DNA of 32,062 bases. Origin: a virus. This document shows positions 6,305 through 25,313 of this stretch, piece by piece. Made by a program: the position numbers and the translations under genes. The notes beneath the pieces are model-generated. The model did not search any database, was not told where the DNA came from, and saw only the letters and a program-made list of their open reading frames with translations. Numbering within the stretch: the stretch's first letter is position 1; each line of letters opens with the position of its first letter. Where the stretch lies: positions 1 through 32,062 of the IMG/VR virus record IMGVR_UViG_3300038714_000176; one strand, written 5' to 3'.

Positions 6305-9300
6305 ATGTTTGGAACTATGGGGCAAACCAATGTCAAAAATCTTGGCAATGGTGGAACAATGGATGGAGATGTCACTATCACAGGTGACTTAACTGTTTCA
6401 GGTGGCATATCATTAAGTTTAAATGAGGTACTGCAAGGTACTTCTACAATAGATATAACCGATACAGAAGCATTATTAGTTAGAAAAGATGGCGATGGTG
6501 GTGATGTATTTGTAGTAGATACAACAAATTCTAGGGTGGGTATTGGCGAAAGCTCTCCAGATCAATTATTGCATTTAAAAGCAACAAGTGGTTCACAAGT
6601 ATTACTTCAGAGAACTTCTGCTGATACAAGTAGTATTTTAGGAGCAATAAATTTTGGAGCATCAGATGGAGACGAATATTTAGCTACAATTATTTCTCAA
6701 CATGATGGAGCAACAGATTCAGCGTATTTAGCATTTCAAACAGAAGCAACTGGTGGTGCTAAAACTGAACGCATGAGAATCACTTCTGCTGGTAAGGTTG
6801 GCATTGGAACTAACTCTCCCTCAAAAGGTCTATCAATCGAAAGTGCAAATAGTGGTGAAGGCATTACAATGAAATCAACAGCTACTGAAGGTGATGTCCA
6901 AATGAACTTTTTTGCTGATAATGGGGATCATTTTTGGACAATGGGCGTAGATGGAACTGTAGATAAATTTGTAATAGACAATAGCTCTTTAAATGGAACT
7001 CATTTTGTAATATTAGATTCTGGAAACACAGGTATTGGACATTCTGCTCCAGCAACTACTATGCACGTTGTTACTACAGATGGAATAACAGTTAGTGATA
7101 CTGCAACAGATAATACAAATCCAACTACAGCAGATGGAACAACAGATAAGCATTTAACAATACAGCGTTCTGCTATTCGCTCTCATGCACCTACTAATGC
7201 TAATTCTAATTTAAATATTGGAATGAAAGGTGGTAACGATATTGGTGCTGGTGCGATAATATTTCAAACAGGCAATACTGAAGATGAAAGGATGCGTATT
7301 GAAAAATCTGGAACAATAGAGCATATTGGTGCATTAACTCAACGTTTATATGTTAAACATATGCACTCAGATGGTACAACTTTATCAGGTTGGGTAGGAA
7401 CTGGAAGTGCTTTGGGAAGTGCTGGAAATACTGATTTGATGTTAAGAGCTAATAACTCTATTTATTTTACTGTAAATAATAGTGGTACTTCTGCCAATAC
7501 TCGATTAATTCTCGATGACAACTCCAGAATTTCACTAAGTAATAATGATGGTGGTTCAGACAATACTGTTTTTGGAGGGTTAGCTGGTAATGCACTTACT
7601 ACAAATGGTGATGAAAATGTTTTGATCGGGCATGAAGCTGGTAATGATATGACTACAGGAGAAAGAAATGTGGTTATTGGCTATCAAGCTGGTGATAGAA
7701 TGACAATATCCACAAGAAGTGTAGCCATTGGATATGGAGCATTAGGAACAGAAGATGTTGGAGATAGGTCGATTGCTATAGGTTTTAATGCTTTACATTC
7801 TCAAAATTCTGATTCAAACAACGAAACAACAGGTAATGTAGGAATTGGAGTAGAGGCTGGATTCTACAACCAAACAGGACAGTATAACACTCTTATTGGA
7901 ACTGGTGCTGGTTTAGGAGCAAGTGGGCAAAGTAATAACAATAATACAGCAGTTGGATATTCTGCATTAAACGTTGTTACTACAGGAAGCCATAATGTTG
8001 TTATAGGGAAAAATAGTGGAGATGCTGTTACAGATGGCTCATATAATGTTTTTATGGGTTACTTTGCAGGTTCAACTACAACTTCGGCTGAAAGAACAAT
8101 CGCTATCGGATCAGAAGCCTTAGAAACAGGAAATCATACTCATACAGGAACTATTGCTATTGGAAGTAAATCTTTGCAAAGATTAGTTTCGGGAAGTGGT
8201 AATACATCAGTTGGCTACTTATCATCAACAAATTTAGTAGAAGGAAACTACAATACAGTATTGGGAGAAAAGGCTTTTGATGCTGGTCAAGAAGATTCTC
8301 AATGTGTAGCTATTGGATATGAAGCCTTAACAAATGCTGATGTAAGTGATACAGGAAGTGCAGTATCTACTCATAATACAGCAGTTGGATATGCTTCGGG
8401 CGACGTAGTAACTACAGGAACAAAAAATACTTTAATTGGAAGTGCAACCGATCCATCATCAAATGCTGGTACTAATCAAACAGTAATTGGATTTAGTGCA
8501 ACAGGAGTAGCAGATAATTCAGTAACTCTTGGTGATGCAGATGTAACTGCTGTTTATATGGCAGAAGATAGTGGTGCTACAATTTACGCTAGTAATGGAG
8601 TTTTTATTGATGATACACCTTTTATTACAGTAAGAGATTCAAGTTCTTATTCTGCTGGTACAGGTGGCGGGATAGCCCTTCAAGGATTAGATAGTGATGA
8701 AAATCTTAAACAATTTAGTTCAATTCAAGGATATTCAATAGGTAGTAATAATGGTGGTCTTGCAATTTATACTCGTGATGCTGGTTCAAATAATTTAGCT
8801 GTTATAGTTGATAATAATAGAGCAGTAAAACCTGGAGCAGATAGTGCTTATGACTTAGGCACAAGTTCTTTGACTTGGAGAAACATTTTTGTTGAAAATA
8901 TAAAATTCCCAGGTACACAAGTTGCAAGTGCAGATGCAAATACTCTGGATGACTACGAAGAAGGTACATGGACACCAGCTTTTCCAGCAAACACATTAAC
9001 AGGAACTCTACAAGGCACTTATACAAAAGTAGGTGATTTGGTAACAGTATTTTTTAATGGTCAATCTTTGGATTATGATGGCTCTGGAAATTCAAACATA
9101 ATAATTACAGGCTTACCATTCACAACTGCTAGTTCTGATATGGGTGTTGTATTTACAAGTAGTGTAGCATATTGGGCAGTAAATATTACAGGAACAGGAG
9201 TTATACAAGGATATGTAGCATCAAATACTTCACAAATTGAGTTATTTGAGGCTGTGGATAATGGAGCAATGACATCGGTAAAAGAAGATCAATTTAGCAC

Positions 9301-9346
9301 AAGTTCTGGAAGTGCTTTAAGATTCACACTTCAATATAAAGTTTAA
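6305..9346 (+). CDS. Repeat-rich trimeric fibre protein (tail or head fibre)
   Basis: The 1013-residue protein starts with a beta-helix-like leader (TMDGDVTITGDLTVSGGI). It then has GIGxxSPxxxLH-type modules near residues 78, 168 and 240, and about 19 degenerate repeats of the form N-[TV]-[VAL]-[IVFM]-G-x-x-[AS] at about 419-746, like the head repeats of trimeric YadA-type adhesins. Further on are YDLGTSSLTWRNIF (about 848-861) and LDDYEEGTWTP (about 880-890), the latter a motif I recall from the ends of marine phage fibres. The C-terminal 120 residues form a beta domain, the probable receptor-binding tip. No S74 self-cleaving chaperone is seen. Lying between capsid and lysis genes, it could be a head fibre rather than a tail fibre. 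Confidence 0.8.
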   Translation: MFGTMGQTNVKNLGNGGTMDGDVTITGDLTVSGGISLSLNEVLQGTSTIDITDTEALLVRKDGDGGDVFVVDTTNSRVGIGESSPDQLLHLKATSGSQVLLQRTSADTSSILGAINFGASDGDEYLATIISQHDGATDSAYLAFQTEATGGAKTERMRITSAGKVGIGTNSPSKGLSIESANSGEGITMKSTATEGDVQMNFFADNGDHFWTMGVDGTVDKFVIDNSSLNGTHFVILDSGNTGIGHSAPATTMHVVTTDGITVSDTATDNTNPTTADGTTDKHLTIQRSAIRSHAPTNANSNLNIGMKGGNDIGAGAIIFQTGNTEDERMRIEKSGTIEHIGALTQRLYVKHMHSDGTTLSGWVGTGSALGSAGNTDLMLRANNSIYFTVNNSGTSANTRLILDDNSRISLSNNDGGSDNTVFGGLAGNALTTNGDENVLIGHEAGNDMTTGERNVVIGYQAGDRMTISTRSVAIGYGALGTEDVGDRSIAIGFNALHSQNSDSNNETTGNVGIGVEAGFYNQTGQYNTLIGTGAGLGASGQSNNNNTAVGYSALNVVTTGSHNVVIGKNSGDAVTDGSYNVFMGYFAGSTTTSAERTIAIGSEALETGNHTHTGTIAIGSKSLQRLVSGSGNTSVGYLSSTNLVEGNYNTVLGEKAFDAGQEDSQCVAIGYEALTNADVSDTGSAVSTHNTAVGYASGDVVTTGTKNTLIGSATDPSSNAGTNQTVIGFSATGVADNSVTLGDADVTAVYMAEDSGATIYASNGVFIDDTPFITVRDSSSYSAGTGGGIALQGLDSDENLKQFSSIQGYSIGSNNGGLAIYTRDAGSNNLAVIVDNNRAVKPGADSAYDLGTSSLTWRNIFVENIKFPGTQVASADANTLDDYEEGTWTPAFPANTLTGTLQGTYTKVGDLVTVFFNGQSLDYDGSGNSNIIITGLPFTTASSDMGVVFTSSVAYWAVNITGTGVIQGYVASNTSQIELFEAVDNGAMTSVKEDQFSTSSGSALRFTLQYKV

Positions 9347-9861: not shown

Positions 9862-10151
9862 TGATTGTAAGACGATGTGCCTATGACCACGATATAGTCA
9901 TACATAAAAATAATAAACCAAACATGGTAAAGACTATTGAGCTAAGTGATGGTACTCTAACCACTATTACTTACCCCAATGCTTACAATTATTTTTTAGT
10001 GGTTGATGGTGAAATTGTTAAAAAGTCAAATTCCTTTTCAACAATAGAAAACGCTTATGTGGCTAAGTGTGCAGAAGTGCATGACGATGGTCATGGGTGC
10101 ATTGATATAATTAGACATAAACTAGTAAACAATAAGGTAGTGGATAGATGA
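9861..10151 (+). CDS. Hypothetical protein, 96 aa
   Basis: Mixed alpha/beta protein with MIVRRCAYDHDIVIHKNN at the start and a His-rich segment (EVHDDGHGCIDIIRHKL) near the end that could bind a metal. No family is recognised. It overlaps both neighbours (TAATG at its start, ATGA at its end), so its translation is tied to the lysis-region genes downstream. Confidence 0.6.
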   Translation: MIVRRCAYDHDIVIHKNNKPNMVKTIELSDGTLTTITYPNAYNYFLVVDGEIVKKSNSFSTIENAYVAKCAEVHDDGHGCIDIIRHKLVNNKVVDR

Positions 10152-10438
10152 GATCACCAATATCTAAATTAGTAGAGTGGCAAATAAAAACAGGACAACT
10201 TGATGGTTGGACTGCTTATCATTTAGGAGCAGGAGCTTTTTTCTGCAAAATATTCCAATGGCTAAATTGGAGTGATTTATGGTGTGTTTTAGGTGTTTTG
10301 ATACTTGGTATAGCTTGGGAGATTTTCGAGTGGATAGTAGAGGATTATAAGCCTTATGGCACTAAAAAAATATGGGCATACAATACAATGGCTGATATAG
10401 TTGTAGAAACTGGTATAGCTTGGTGGATGGTGCTATGA
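10148..10438 (+). CDS. Small membrane protein, candidate holin-region component
   Basis: The 96-residue protein has hydrophobic segments at about 27-42 (YHLGAGAFFCKIFQWL), 45-63 (LWCVLGVLILGIAWEIFEW) and at the C-terminus (IVVETGIAWWMVL), with the acidic pair WEIFEWIVED and a downstream Asp (MADIV). This build recalls small VanZ-like or DUF2238-like membrane proteins. Position at the start of a block ending in the endolysin suggests a role in membrane permeabilisation, by inference only. ATGA overlaps link it to genes on both sides. Confidence 0.55.
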   Translation: MRSPISKLVEWQIKTGQLDGWTAYHLGAGAFFCKIFQWLNWSDLWCVLGVLILGIAWEIFEWIVEDYKPYGTKKIWAYNTMADIVVETGIAWWMVL

Positions 10439-10620
10439 ACAAAGTAATTAAAACATTGAAGAACGGAGATTTTGAAGTTGTTAGTACGAGTTATGATATT
10501 CCTGTTAAGTATATTGACAGTACAAAGTTGTGGAAGTCAAGGTTGGATAGTCGCAAATATACCTCTCACACCACAGGATACAGTTATAAATACAGTTTTT
10601 ATCGAGATAGTGGATGCTGA
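10435..10620 (+). CDS. Hypothetical 61-aa protein overlapping a lipoprotein frame
   Basis: The frame starts at an ATG overlapping the previous stop (ATGA, 10435-10438). It encodes a basic, Ser/Tyr-rich protein (NGDFEVVSTSYDIPVKYIDS, then a C-terminal YSYKYSFYRDSGC). No signal peptide or membrane segment is seen. A second frame, 10472-10711, runs through most of it. The coupling overlap favours expression, but the protein itself is unremarkable, and it could be a non-functional open frame. Confidence 0.4.
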   Translation: MNKVIKTLKNGDFEVVSTSYDIPVKYIDSTKLWKSRLDSRKYTSHTTGYSYKYSFYRDSGC

Positions 10621-10711
10621 TTCTGTGGTTCATTGGTTTCATGGCAATATCAGCGATTATAGTAATTGGTGTTATAGGCATGAGCAACTGGAAGAAGTAA
10701 GGATTAAATGA
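10472..10711 (+). CDS. Putative lipoprotein, candidate outer-membrane spanin (TTG start)
   Basis: Read from TTG at 10472 (GGAG at 10465-10468), the 79-residue product starts MKLLVRVMIFLLSILTVQSC: positive charge, hydrophobic core and a lipobox-like VQS-C, so a lipidated cysteine at residue 20 is predicted. The mature part is about 60 residues and ends with a charged tail. The stop (10709-10711) overlaps the next ATG as ATGA. The next gene has one N-terminal membrane helix plus a coiled coil, so the two could be an o-spanin/i-spanin pair that fuses inner and outer membranes during lysis. The Gln at -2 of the lipobox is unusual, and the frame competes with 10435-10620 and 10614-10700. Confidence 0.5.
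   Translation: MKLLVRVMIFLLSILTVQSCGSQGWIVANIPLTPQDTVINTVFIEIVDADSVVHWFHGNISDYSNWCYRHEQLEEVRIK
10614..10700 (+). CDS. 28-aa single-helix membrane microprotein (overlapping frame)
   Basis: A third-frame ORF too short for routine calling. It encodes MLILWFIGFMAISAIIVIGV followed by IGMSNWKK: one continuous membrane helix with a positive end. Its ATG overlaps the stop region of the 61-residue frame (ATGCTGA), and it ends 7 bases before the next start. It is fully contained in the lipoprotein frame. A hydrophobic open frame this clean in a lysis block is suggestive, but it may be a by-product of the overlapping lipoprotein sequence. Confidence 0.35.
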   Translation: MLILWFIGFMAISAIIVIGVIGMSNWKK

Positions 10712-11046
10712 TGGGTGTGGCAGAAATAATTGAATTATATGGACAGCTAGGAGCAATGGGAATAATGACCATTGGGTTTTTATTCCTGCTTAACAATTTA
10801 GTCAGATCGCAGAAAGATCAATCAGAAGATTTAGATGTAATTAAACAAGATATATCAAAAATGCAAACAGAGATAAATTCCGTTTATTCAATATGTGTAA
10901 AATTAATTGACTCTATTAATGGTTTTAAAGGAAGTATTAATGATAAAATGGATCGTAGACATGAAGCTATGATGAAAGAATTAGATGATTTAAGTGATAA
11001 AATTAGTTATATGTCTGGAAGAATAAATGGTGGGGGTAAACATTAA
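10708..11046 (+). CDS. Membrane-anchored coiled-coil protein, candidate inner-membrane spanin or holin-associated protein
   Basis: The 112-residue protein has one hydrophobic segment near the N-terminus (residues 14-31, QLGAMGIMTIGFLFLLNN) and then a long charged helical region with heptads to about residue 105 (DVIKQDISKMQTEINSV and LDDLSDKISYMSGRI). A single N-terminal anchor plus coiled coil is the build of i-spanins and of XhlA-like proteins. It directly follows a putative lipoprotein gene and precedes a possible holin. The start is a double ATG; AAGGA lies 6-7 bases upstream. Confidence 0.6.
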   Translation: MMGVAEIIELYGQLGAMGIMTIGFLFLLNNLVRSQKDQSEDLDVIKQDISKMQTEINSVYSICVKLIDSINGFKGSINDKMDRRHEAMMKELDDLSDKISYMSGRINGGGKH

Positions 11047-11183: not shown

Positions 11184-11407
11184 TGGACATTAAATCAATG
11201 TTAGTAAAGGTTGCTGAAGAGCAAGCAGATAAAATGAAAGAACAAGCTGTAGGCTACACCCAATCAGAAGAGTTTGCAGGTAAAATGGCTCAGTTAATGA
11301 ATGATAAAATAAACATTCCATTTGTAAAAGAAGAGAAAGAAGGCGAACTATTTAAAGAGTTTGCTGAAGTAGTACAAGATTTAATTGCAGGTATATTTAA
11401 AAAGTAA
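11183..11407 (+). CDS. Hypothetical protein, 74 aa, amphipathic helical
   Basis: The ATG at 11183 overlaps the preceding stop (TAATG), and the product starts MDIKSMLVKVAEEQADKM; the longer frame from 11123 lies inside the upstream gene. The protein is helical and charged, with NDKINIPFVKEEKEGELF in the middle and a hydrophobic end (VVQDLIAGIFKK). A similar small protein is, from memory, common beside lysis genes of marine phages. Function unknown. Confidence 0.65.
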   Translation: MDIKSMLVKVAEEQADKMKEQAVGYTQSEEFAGKMAQLMNDKINIPFVKEEKEGELFKEFAEVVQDLIAGIFKK

Positions 11408-11697
11408 TGCCTAAGAAACGTGATCCAAGATTAGCTAGGTATGGACTAAAAGGGTACAATAAGCCGAAGCGTACTCCTAATCATCCTAAGAAATCTCATG
11501 TAGTTCTTGCAAAGGTTGGCAGTAAAGTCAAACTTATTAGGTTTGGTCAGCAAGGTGCTAAAACAGCAGGTAAACCTAAAAAAGGTGAATCTGCTAGAAT
11601 GAAAGCAAAACGTAGATCATTTAAAGCTAGGCATCGTAAGAACATAGCAAGAGGTAAAATGTCAGGCAGTTACTGGGCAAATAAGGTGAAGTGGTAA
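11407..11697 (+). CDS. Highly basic protein, 96 aa
   Basis: About a third of the residues are Lys or Arg, with almost no acidic residues. The conserved-looking core KVKLIRFGQQGAKTAGKPKK is followed by SFKARHRKNIARGKMSGSYW and ends WANKVKW. I recall this core from many uncultured marine phage and bacterial proteins of unknown function. It is the first of four consecutive basic proteins. A role in nucleic acid binding or condensation is suggested only by charge. It is joined to both neighbours by TAATG. Confidence 0.65.
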   Translation: MPKKRDPRLARYGLKGYNKPKRTPNHPKKSHVVLAKVGSKVKLIRFGQQGAKTAGKPKKGESARMKAKRRSFKARHRKNIARGKMSGSYWANKVKW

Positions 11698-11885
11698 TGC
11701 CTAGAAAAAAGAGACGAAAATCAACAGTAAATAAAGCAGGTAACTATACAAAACCTGCTATGAGAAAAAGACTTTTTTATAGAATTAAAGCAGGTAGCAA
11801 GGGCGGAAGAGCAGGGCAATGGTCTGCCAGAAAAGCTCAAATGCTTGCTAGGGCATATAAAAAAGCTGGAGGAGGTTATAGATAA
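11697..11885 (+). CDS. Highly basic protein, 62 aa
   Basis: The ATG at 11697 (TAATG overlap) is preferred to the in-frame ATG at 11691, which lies inside the previous gene. The product is very basic, beginning MPRKKRRKSTVNKAGNYTKP, and carries GGRAGQWSARKAQMLARAYK near the end, finishing AGGGYR. The QWSARKAQ...YKxxGGGY motif is recurrent in phage proteins of unknown function as far as I recall. Nucleic acid binding is an inference from composition. Confidence 0.65.
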   Translation: MPRKKRRKSTVNKAGNYTKPAMRKRLFYRIKAGSKGGRAGQWSARKAQMLARAYKKAGGGYR

Positions 11886-12130
11886 TGCCATTAAAGTCAC
11901 CTCAAAAGAGTTTAAAGAAATGGACAAAGCAAAAATGGGGATATGTAACTAAGAGTGATGCAAAAAAACCAAGAAGAAAAAGGGGGCGTTACCTACCTGA
12001 ATCAGTTAGGAAAAGTCTCAGTCCAAGCGAAAAGGCTTATACAAACAGGCAAAAGAGAAAAGCTTCTGCCAAAGGTAAGCAACGAGCAAAGTACAGTAAA
12101 AAAGTAGCAAAACGAGTAAGGAGATCATAA
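11885..12130 (+). CDS. Highly basic protein, 81 aa
   Basis: Counting residues gives 20 Lys and 11 Arg against 3 acidic residues. Motifs: SLKKWTKQKWGYVTKSD (9-25), GRYLPESVRKSLSPSEKAY (34-52), then an almost continuous basic tail. The middle motif recurs in small phage proteins, from memory. TAATG overlaps connect it to both neighbours. It could bind DNA or RNA, or act on membranes; nothing in the sequence decides. Confidence 0.6.
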   Translation: MPLKSPQKSLKKWTKQKWGYVTKSDAKKPRRKRGRYLPESVRKSLSPSEKAYTNRQKRKASAKGKQRAKYSKKVAKRVRRS

Positions 12131-12213
12131 TGCCAAAGGGAAAAGGATATGGCTTCGGAAAAGCAAAGCCAAAGAAAAAACGTAAGATGATAAAGAAGGG
12201 AAAGAAGAAGTAA
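12130..12213 (+). CDS. 27-aa lysine-rich microprotein
   Basis: The frame is exactly bounded by TAATG overlaps at both ends (12128-12132 and 12211-12215), the best evidence that it is translated. The product is MPKGKGYGFGKAKPKKKRKM plus IKKGKKK: 13 Lys and 1 Arg of 27 residues, a Gly/Lys N-terminus, and no acidic residue. It resembles a protamine-like or antimicrobial-like peptide in composition only. It immediately precedes the endolysin. Confidence 0.6.
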   Translation: MPKGKGYGFGKAKPKKKRKMIKKGKKK

Positions 12214-12593
12214 TGTATAAGTTCGGTAGACGGAGTCGAGAAAGACTCAAAGGGGTGGATGCTAGACTGGTAAATGTGTTAAATGAATTAATTAAAATGA
12301 TGGATGTTACTATTATTGAAGGACTCCGTTCTGCTGAACGTCAAGAAGAACTTTTAGCAAAGGGAGCTACTAAAGTAAAGTACTCTAAGCATATGGAAGG
12401 TAAGGCAGTTGATTTAGCACCATACCCAATAGACTGGGAAGATAGAGATGGCTTTTACTATATGGGTGGAATGATTCGTGGTATAGCTAAACAAATGGGA
12501 GTGGACATAAGATTTGGTGGAGACTGGGATAGCGATGGAAACACTAGAGATAATAATTTTGATGATTTAGTTCATATAGAGATAAAAAGTTAA
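12213..12593 (+). CDS. Endolysin, M15-family D-Ala-D-Ala / L-Ala-D-Glu peptidase
   Basis: The 126-residue enzyme cuts peptide cross-links of the host wall at lysis. The zinc ligands of the M15 (VanY-like) fold are visible: SKHMEGKAVDL supplies His60 and Asp67, and DLVHIEI supplies His121; EGLRSAERQEELLAKG (36-51) is the usual segment before them with Arg39 near the active site. No signal peptide is present, so export needs a holin. The length suits a single catalytic domain without a wall-binding domain. The start overlaps the previous stop as TAATG, at the end of the coupled lysis block. Confidence 0.85.
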   Translation: MYKFGRRSRERLKGVDARLVNVLNELIKMMDVTIIEGLRSAERQEELLAKGATKVKYSKHMEGKAVDLAPYPIDWEDRDGFYYMGGMIRGIAKQMGVDIRFGGDWDSDGNTRDNNFDDLVHIEIKS

Positions 12594-24548: not shown

Positions 24549-25313
24549 CTAACCTTTAATTAATTCACCCCAAAGAGATGTCTTACCATTGACTATCTGC
24601 ACTAGGTGAACTGTAAAGAATCCTGAGTGATAAAAATCAACAATAGCAAAAGCGTGTTGCCAGTTATGTTGCCTATTGCCTAACCATTCATTGGACTCTG
24701 CACTCATATCTTTTAGGCACCCTATTGACCAAGCTGACTTGACCCCATCAATATGGGTAACGGAAGATTGTTGTATGTCGTGATGATGTCCATACATAAC
24801 ATTACCACCAAGACGAAGGAGGTGGTTACGAGTATGATTAATACCAGCGAAATGATGTCCATGATAAAAGTTGAGTTTACCAATTTTAAGCATCTTACCC
24901 AATGGGTGGTATTTATAACCACGCAATCCCAATTTAATAGCATTTTTAACCAAAAAATCCTTAGCAAGGTAGGGATTTTCTTCAACAAATCTATTAAGCC
25001 AATCTTCATGGTTACCTTCAACAAAATGCCTCTCTTTTACGTTTGCTTTATCAAGTGACTCATCAATTATATCCATTCCTTTATTTACTTCTTCTATCTC
25101 TTTTGTAACAAATGGTAATTGATATTCTAGTGGTGGTCTTTTCTTTTTCTTCCATTGCCAATGTGATACTGACTCCCATTCTCCAGTATCTCCAAGATCA
25201 ATATAACCATCAGGCTGTATGATCTCAATAGCCTGACAAACAACGCTTATAGCTTTCATATCAGCCATAGGAAAATGTTTATCAGGAGTTACAATATATC
25301 TTTTAACTTTCAT
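24549..25313 (-). CDS. Calcineurin-like metallophosphoesterase
   Basis: The 254-residue enzyme shows the di-metal phosphoesterase motifs in order: DKH (11-13, DxH), GDTGEW (41-46, GDxxE), GNHED (100-104), HGHH (151-154) and GHHHD (175-179). All ligands expected for the two metals are there. Family members hydrolyse phosphomono- or diesters, from nucleotides and nucleic acids to proteins; the substrate here is unknown. In phage replication units such enzymes are thought to trim DNA ends or nucleotides. The ATG overlaps the previous stop (ATGA) after GGAGGAATT. Confidence 0.8.
   Translation of the reverse strand: MKVKRYIVTPDKHFPMADMKAISVVCQAIEIIQPDGYIDLGDTGEWESVSHWQWKKKKRPPLEYQLPFVTKEIEEVNKGMDIIDESLDKANVKERHFVEGNHEDWLNRFVEENPYLAKDFLVKNAIKLGLRGYKYHPLGKMLKIGKLNFYHGHHFAGINHTRNHLLRLGGNVMYGHHHDIQQSSVTHIDGVKSAWSIGCLKDMSAESNEWLGNRQHNWQHAFAIVDFYHSGFFTVHLVQIVNGKTSLWGELIKG

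Follow-up and report, generated by a model that had tools for sequence, protein, structure and literature searches.

A small phage lipoprotein and an overlapping 61-residue protein in a viral lysis region: two probable genes sharing one stretch of DNA

The closest described counterparts of the locus presented here are the Rz/Rz1 pair and the overlapped spanins, for example P2 LysB/LysC. According to the excerpted text of a spanin survey (PMC6139136), spanin genes form embedded, overlapped and separated pairs with the o-spanin in the +1 or -1 frame, and a periplasmic cysteine is present in at least one subunit in 507 of 528 two-component spanins. Other counterparts are the small lipoproteins of the T5 Llp/Cor type; the T5 Llp gene adjoins the gene of its receptor-binding protein, as given in the extract of PMC9586334. 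Overlapping genes on the same strand can be recognized by tests such as OLGenie (in the extract of PMC7531306) and the Wei-Zhang test, which detect double purifying selection through suppressed synonymous change. The same signal is used here. Unlike in those tests, the natural dissociation of the two genes provides a second, independent proof.

The window is the whole stretch of DNA analysed, 32,062 bases of an IMG/VR virus record. Its lysis region is marked by an endolysin, an M15-like peptidase (12213-12593, plus strand; PHROG 465 endolysin, E 1e-38). The lipoprotein region is located between this endolysin and a large gene of 1013 residues (6305-9346), called fibre-like from a reading of its sequence. 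The features of this region are all on the plus strand. A 96-residue membrane-type protein (10148-10438), for which no Pfam or PHROG family was found at E≤1, shares ATGA at 10435-10438 between its stop and the start of a 61-residue small protein, f61 (10435-10620). The lipoprotein frame of 79 residues (10472-10711) is +1 relative to f61. It starts with TTG at 10472, or at 10478 with better spacing from GGAG at 10465-10468, a possible Shine-Dalgarno element read from the sequence and lying in the Asn-Gly-Asp codons of f61. A 28-residue frame (10614-10700), +1 relative to the lipoprotein, overlaps the f61 stop with its start in ATGCTGA at 10614-10620, and the lipoprotein stop overlaps, as TGA/ATG at 10708-10711, the start of a 112-residue single-TM coiled-coil protein (10708-11046). 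A preliminary description of this DNA had proposed coding in two and three frames, each tied to its neighbours by start/stop overlaps; all three frames and all three overlaps are present in the sequence. It had also placed both other frames completely within the lipoprotein. This is correct for the 28-residue frame but not for f61, of which the first 37 nt lie ahead of the lipoprotein start.

The preliminary description drew a parallel with nested Rz/Rz1 genes. As in the Rz/Rz1 and overlapped spanins, a small gene for a lipoprotein overlaps, in another frame, a second small gene of the lysis region, the mature lipoprotein contains Cys and a coiled-coil membrane protein is encoded nearby. However, f61 as the overlapping partner lacks a membrane segment, the gene for the coiled-coil protein is located behind that of the lipoprotein, and the f61 overlap is independent of this gene. 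Since f61 has no such segment, the two proteins do not constitute an Rz/Rz1 pair, and the parallel is only partial. The mature part of the lipoprotein also differs from the Pro-rich tail of Rz1-type o-spanins: W, H, C and E are conserved in it, and its predicted beta fold consists of two hairpins.

Relatives were collected by IMG/VR searches with the upstream gene (245 relatives, best 80 of 245 used), two more variants of it (199 and 196 relatives, best 80 of each used), the downstream gene (71 relatives) and the lipoprotein alignment (293 relatives, best 80 of 293 used). The lipoprotein is found in 205 of 223 sequences, and 132 of these are distinct. Nothing similar was found among the INPHARED phages, where f61 gave just two chance-level matches (E 0.3), and one scan of GTDB genomes gave 48 pattern matches and no relatives. 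Sequence searches of both proteins against Pfam, PHROG and PDB gave no convincing match. No published description of the pair was found in the literature searched at the level of titles and abstract openings.

The lipoprotein-type frame is almost certainly genuine. It is intact in 132 distinct relatives, in 131 of which the Cys is followed by GW. Stop codons in this frame, named in the preliminary description as what would speak against it, were found inside the matched stretch in 0 of 74 distinct ORFs. The lipidation Cys of the VQS-C sequence (10529-10531) is present in 129 of 129 aligned lipoproteins, and in alignment A1 (54 sequences) residues C20, G24, W25, H54, C67 and E74 are invariant. 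A strict lipobox pattern is found in 13 of these 54 sequences, the window VQSC not being among its matches, and a loose pattern in 51; all 54 have the Cys together with a hydrophobic h-region, with a minimum 12-residue hydropathy of 1.72. The protein is very probably exported and lipidated. The mature part has 58-61 residues in 107 of 131 relatives and a second Cys in 127 of 131, in agreement with the periplasmic cysteine of two-component spanins. In 18 distinct relatives a minimal lipoprotein is found with a mature part of 13 residues, type CDSGWSVCGWEVK (for example, 907-1014 of locus L020, and similar loci). The structure model (pLDDT 74) contains two beta hairpins besides a signal helix. 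One fold search with the lipoprotein gave a single match, the 52-residue viral BFVD entry A0A516M3N6 (E 1.2e-3, 32% identity), and another gave no match. In 62 of 129 aligned relatives the lipoprotein starts with ATG where the window reads ACG, and the others begin elsewhere. Because many relatives use this ATG, the TTG start of the window (10472 or 10478) is, as judged from the alignment, a local peculiarity common to a minority of relatives.

The conserved section of f61 is its N-terminal half. Of 130 distinct relatives, 125 carry the motif STSY(D/N)IPVxY, read in the -1 frame where the lipoprotein signal peptide is encoded; L097 was left out of these counts because its locus starts inside the signal peptide. 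In the window the motif reads TSYDIPVKY, residues 18-26 (10486-10512), and the same bases encode the h-region of the lipoprotein signal peptide in the +1 frame. Among 114 distinct f61 sequences, residue 20 is Tyr in 114, residue 26 is Tyr in 112 and residue 19 is Ser in 107. The codons of Ser19 are AGY in 68 and TCN in 39 sequences, where the lipoprotein frame has V or L; therefore more than one base change was needed while the serine was kept. Over the motif bases the lipoprotein frame is less conserved than the f61 frame. A tree simulation of motif entropy was dependent on its settings: the observed value was matched or undercut in 0, 38 or 160 of 200 runs. The structure model of f61, of low confidence (pLDDT 60), has an N-terminal beta hairpin.

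The synonymous change in the lipoprotein was compared by segment in 49 independent pairs, using a simple re-implementation of a test of the OLGenie kind with in-sequence control frames. In the signal-peptide overlap dS is 0.110 (0.076-0.143). It is 0.299 (0.236-0.370) where the C-terminal half of f61 is encoded and 0.362 (0.293-0.427) where the DNA encodes the lipoprotein only; 42 of 48 untied pairs show a lower dS in the overlap than in this lipoprotein-only DNA (p=1e-7). Purifying selection in both frames over the shared bases was found for the N-terminal half of f61 and the lipoprotein. From the pattern by segment it follows that f61 detectably constrains just the overlap with its N-terminal half. 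The frame closes early in many relatives, at about 25-40 or 46-59 residues. In synonymous recodings of the lipoprotein the f61 frame is open in 2.8%. Its C-terminal half is open in 73 of 103 relatives, a number reached by 1 of 100 and 0 of 100 lipoprotein simulations at two rate settings and by 4 of 100 in a further run, which weakly supports the C-terminal half being kept open somewhat more than by chance. The evolution of the sequences shows this half to be under little or no constraint and largely passive. Of the synonymous-site constraint that the preliminary description proposed to look for in all three frames, a clear signal is therefore found for the N-terminal half of f61 over the signal peptide, little or none for its C-terminal half and none for the 28-residue frame. 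Early stops in f61, which it had also named as adverse, do occur in many relatives, but the N-terminal motif is kept in 125 of 130.

The 28-residue membrane frame does not appear to be a gene. It is open in 14.7% of synonymous recodings of the lipoprotein (12.5% together with its ATG) and thus is unremarkable. Among relatives it is open in 97 of 103, while lipoprotein-only simulations have a mean of 82 and reach at least 97 in 41 of 100 runs; its ATG is kept in just 67 of 103. The dN/dS-like ratio of 0.54 equals that of the control frame (0.54), and the dS of the lipoprotein is highest over this frame. Neither the simulation, nor the ratio, nor the relatives indicate constraint beyond that of the lipoprotein, and coding in a third frame was rejected. 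Most likely the lipoprotein code gives rise to this frame as a by-product.

The dissociation of the two genes was followed in 131 distinct loci that contain the upstream gene followed by 300 nt or more. Both genes are present in 115 loci, f61 only in 3 (L011, L336 and L086), and neither in 10, five of which have a 43-residue peptide and five nothing. Three loci were scored as lipoprotein-only; two of these, L268 and L319, are lipoproteins without f61, as are L139 and L140 outside this set, while L333 is uninformative due to an inserted gene. In L087, L090 and L125, also outside this set, the motif forms an in-frame fusion with the N-terminus of the lipoprotein. Each gene is thus shown, in the sequences of these loci, to exist without the other. 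In 12 loci that lack this lipoprotein, a scan for others gave two doubtful ORFs (L013 and L015), at a sensitivity of just 30 of 60 known positives. Taken with the motif in 125 of 130 relatives and the drop of dS in the overlap, the dissociation upholds double coding in the two larger frames; f61 and the lipoprotein are almost certainly two real genes.

The way in which one stretch carries two messages can be seen from the geometry of the overlap. The third base of an f61 codon is the second base of a lipoprotein codon, and a T at the second codon position yields hydrophobic residues and with them an export signal. In 114 distinct sequences a mean of 6.7 of the 9 motif codons end in T, versus 4.6 expected from the codon usage of the window. 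Without the overlap, such codons number 4 in L011, 3 in L336, 5 in L087, 4 in L090 and 1 in L125, of 9 each. L086, which has lost the Cys and still reads hydrophobic, keeps 6 of 9. With the loss of the overlap the habit of ending in T mostly disappears. In lipoproteins that lack an f61 partner the h-regions of the signal peptides are unrelated, and for this reason the best explanation for the constant h-region of the other loci is that f61 imposes it.

A motif-based classification places a membrane/coiled-coil protein directly after the lipoprotein in at least 125 of 127 readable loci. Of the 131 loci, 72 have the SEKP type, 37 the type of the window protein at 10708 (with three more among the loci classed as other) and 13 the MSKPLND type; 4 end with the contig. 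The two remaining other loci have a different coiled-coil-like protein after the lipoprotein. Some loci with these downstream proteins are without the lipoprotein. The nearly constant presence of such a gene after the lipoprotein makes a spanin-like role possible. The 10708 protein matches PHROG 739 'Rz-like spanin' weakly (E 8.4e-4; 3.6e-6 for an ortholog), and its flanking charges favour an N-out/C-in orientation with a cytoplasmic coiled coil, which argues against an i-spanin; the charges of the other partner types are neutral. In view of the weak match and of these charges, a spanin-like role of the lipoprotein is plausible yet unproven, and we give it somewhat less than an even chance.

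The main rival to a spanin-like role is superinfection exclusion. The lipoprotein would then block the phage's own receptor in the manner of T5 Llp/Cor instead of acting in lysis, and f61 would be an unrelated small gene. Llp and Cor are likewise small phage lipoproteins with cysteines encoded near an adhesin gene. The size is similar, the second mature Cys is found in 127 of 131 relatives, and the lipoprotein lies about 1.1 kb downstream of the fibre-like gene in the window and within two genes of one in L134, L139 and L141. However, no Cor/Llp family appears among the matches of the family-level searches. The lipoprotein here overlaps another gene, a membrane/coiled-coil gene is next in nearly all loci, and 18 relatives keep just a 13-residue mature peptide. 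Exclusion is for these reasons rather unlikely, judging from the gene order and the protein families.

Three other explanations concern f61 itself. The lipoprotein frame is +1 to f61, starts within it and extends beyond it, an arrangement which the excerpted survey (PMC6139136) describes for overlapped spanins; f61 would then be the i-spanin and the lipoprotein the o-spanin. This pairing is extremely improbable: the best 18-residue hydropathy of f61 over 55 relatives is 0.88, no membrane segment being found, and many f61 proteins have just 25-35 residues. The missing membrane segment largely refutes f61 as an i-spanin. The ATGA coupling to the upstream gene and the GGAG within f61 could also mean that f61 is a mere translational-coupling leader to the lipoprotein start, with a product without function. 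But the amino acid motif is kept through Ser codon switches and different upstream spacing, and it persists in loci without the lipoprotein and in the fused form, so that a pure leader was rejected as very unlikely. Equally unlikely is a +1 frameshift joining f61 to the lipoprotein, with the fusion as the product and the in-frame fusions of L087, L090 and L125 as the ancestral form. A shift after the motif in the window would leave about six residues ahead of the Cys, not enough for an h-region, and f61 also occurs without the lipoprotein; the frameshift fusion was rejected as the main product.

The explanation we consider best, and somewhat probable, is that f61 and the lipoprotein are overlapping genes and that the lipoprotein acts at the envelope with the protein encoded next. 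Ribosomes would reach f61 from the upstream gene through the ATGA coupling, and translation of the lipoprotein would begin inside f61. In this explanation f61 would be a small protein that lacks a membrane segment and works through its first ~26 residues. The lipoprotein, whose signal peptide is encoded by the bases of the f61 motif and whose mature part has ~60 residues, would be exported and lipidated and then act at the envelope late in infection. Its partner is most likely the next-encoded membrane/coiled-coil protein, and their joint action might be spanin-like. From the cytoplasm, f61 might serve the same envelope module as a helper or a regulator. More speculatively, f61 might represent an unnamed small phage protein family around STSY(D/N)IPVxY that works with an envelope/lysis module, in which T-ending codons carried the export signal of the lipoprotein. 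The overlap would then have arisen or disappeared repeatedly, in some loci with the motif becoming fused to the precursor of the lipoprotein, and the fused forms would suggest that the motif acts at or near the inner membrane, in the same process as the lipoprotein.

Since this pair of small genes occurs in overlap, separately and as a fusion, it represents a clean natural experiment on gene overlap. The cost of the overlap to each gene can be read directly, as synonymous change lower by about threefold and an h-region sequence frozen by the partner frame. The locus also shows how easily gene callers will overlook one of two such genes in uncultured phages. Among the envelope genes of these viruses, of which little is known, the pair adds one lipoprotein and one peptide family.

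Several other features were observed around these loci. The 43-residue peptide gene (MKKKKKITDPVIVIDYLPLKY...) replaces f61, without the lipoprotein, in L008 (2927-3055), L009, L013, L045 and L225; its stretch Y-x-P-L-K-Y-x-F is f61-like by eye, and the f61 profile gave no detection. A gene of ~104 residues is inserted between the upstream gene and f61 in L163 (4537-4851) and in L333. In the window at 11407-12213, between the membrane genes and the endolysin, small and very basic ORFs follow each other with start/stop overlaps, and similar runs are found in relatives. A 254-residue protein encoded at 24549-25313 on the minus strand of the window resembles, by eye, the protein right after the endolysin-like gene in L139.
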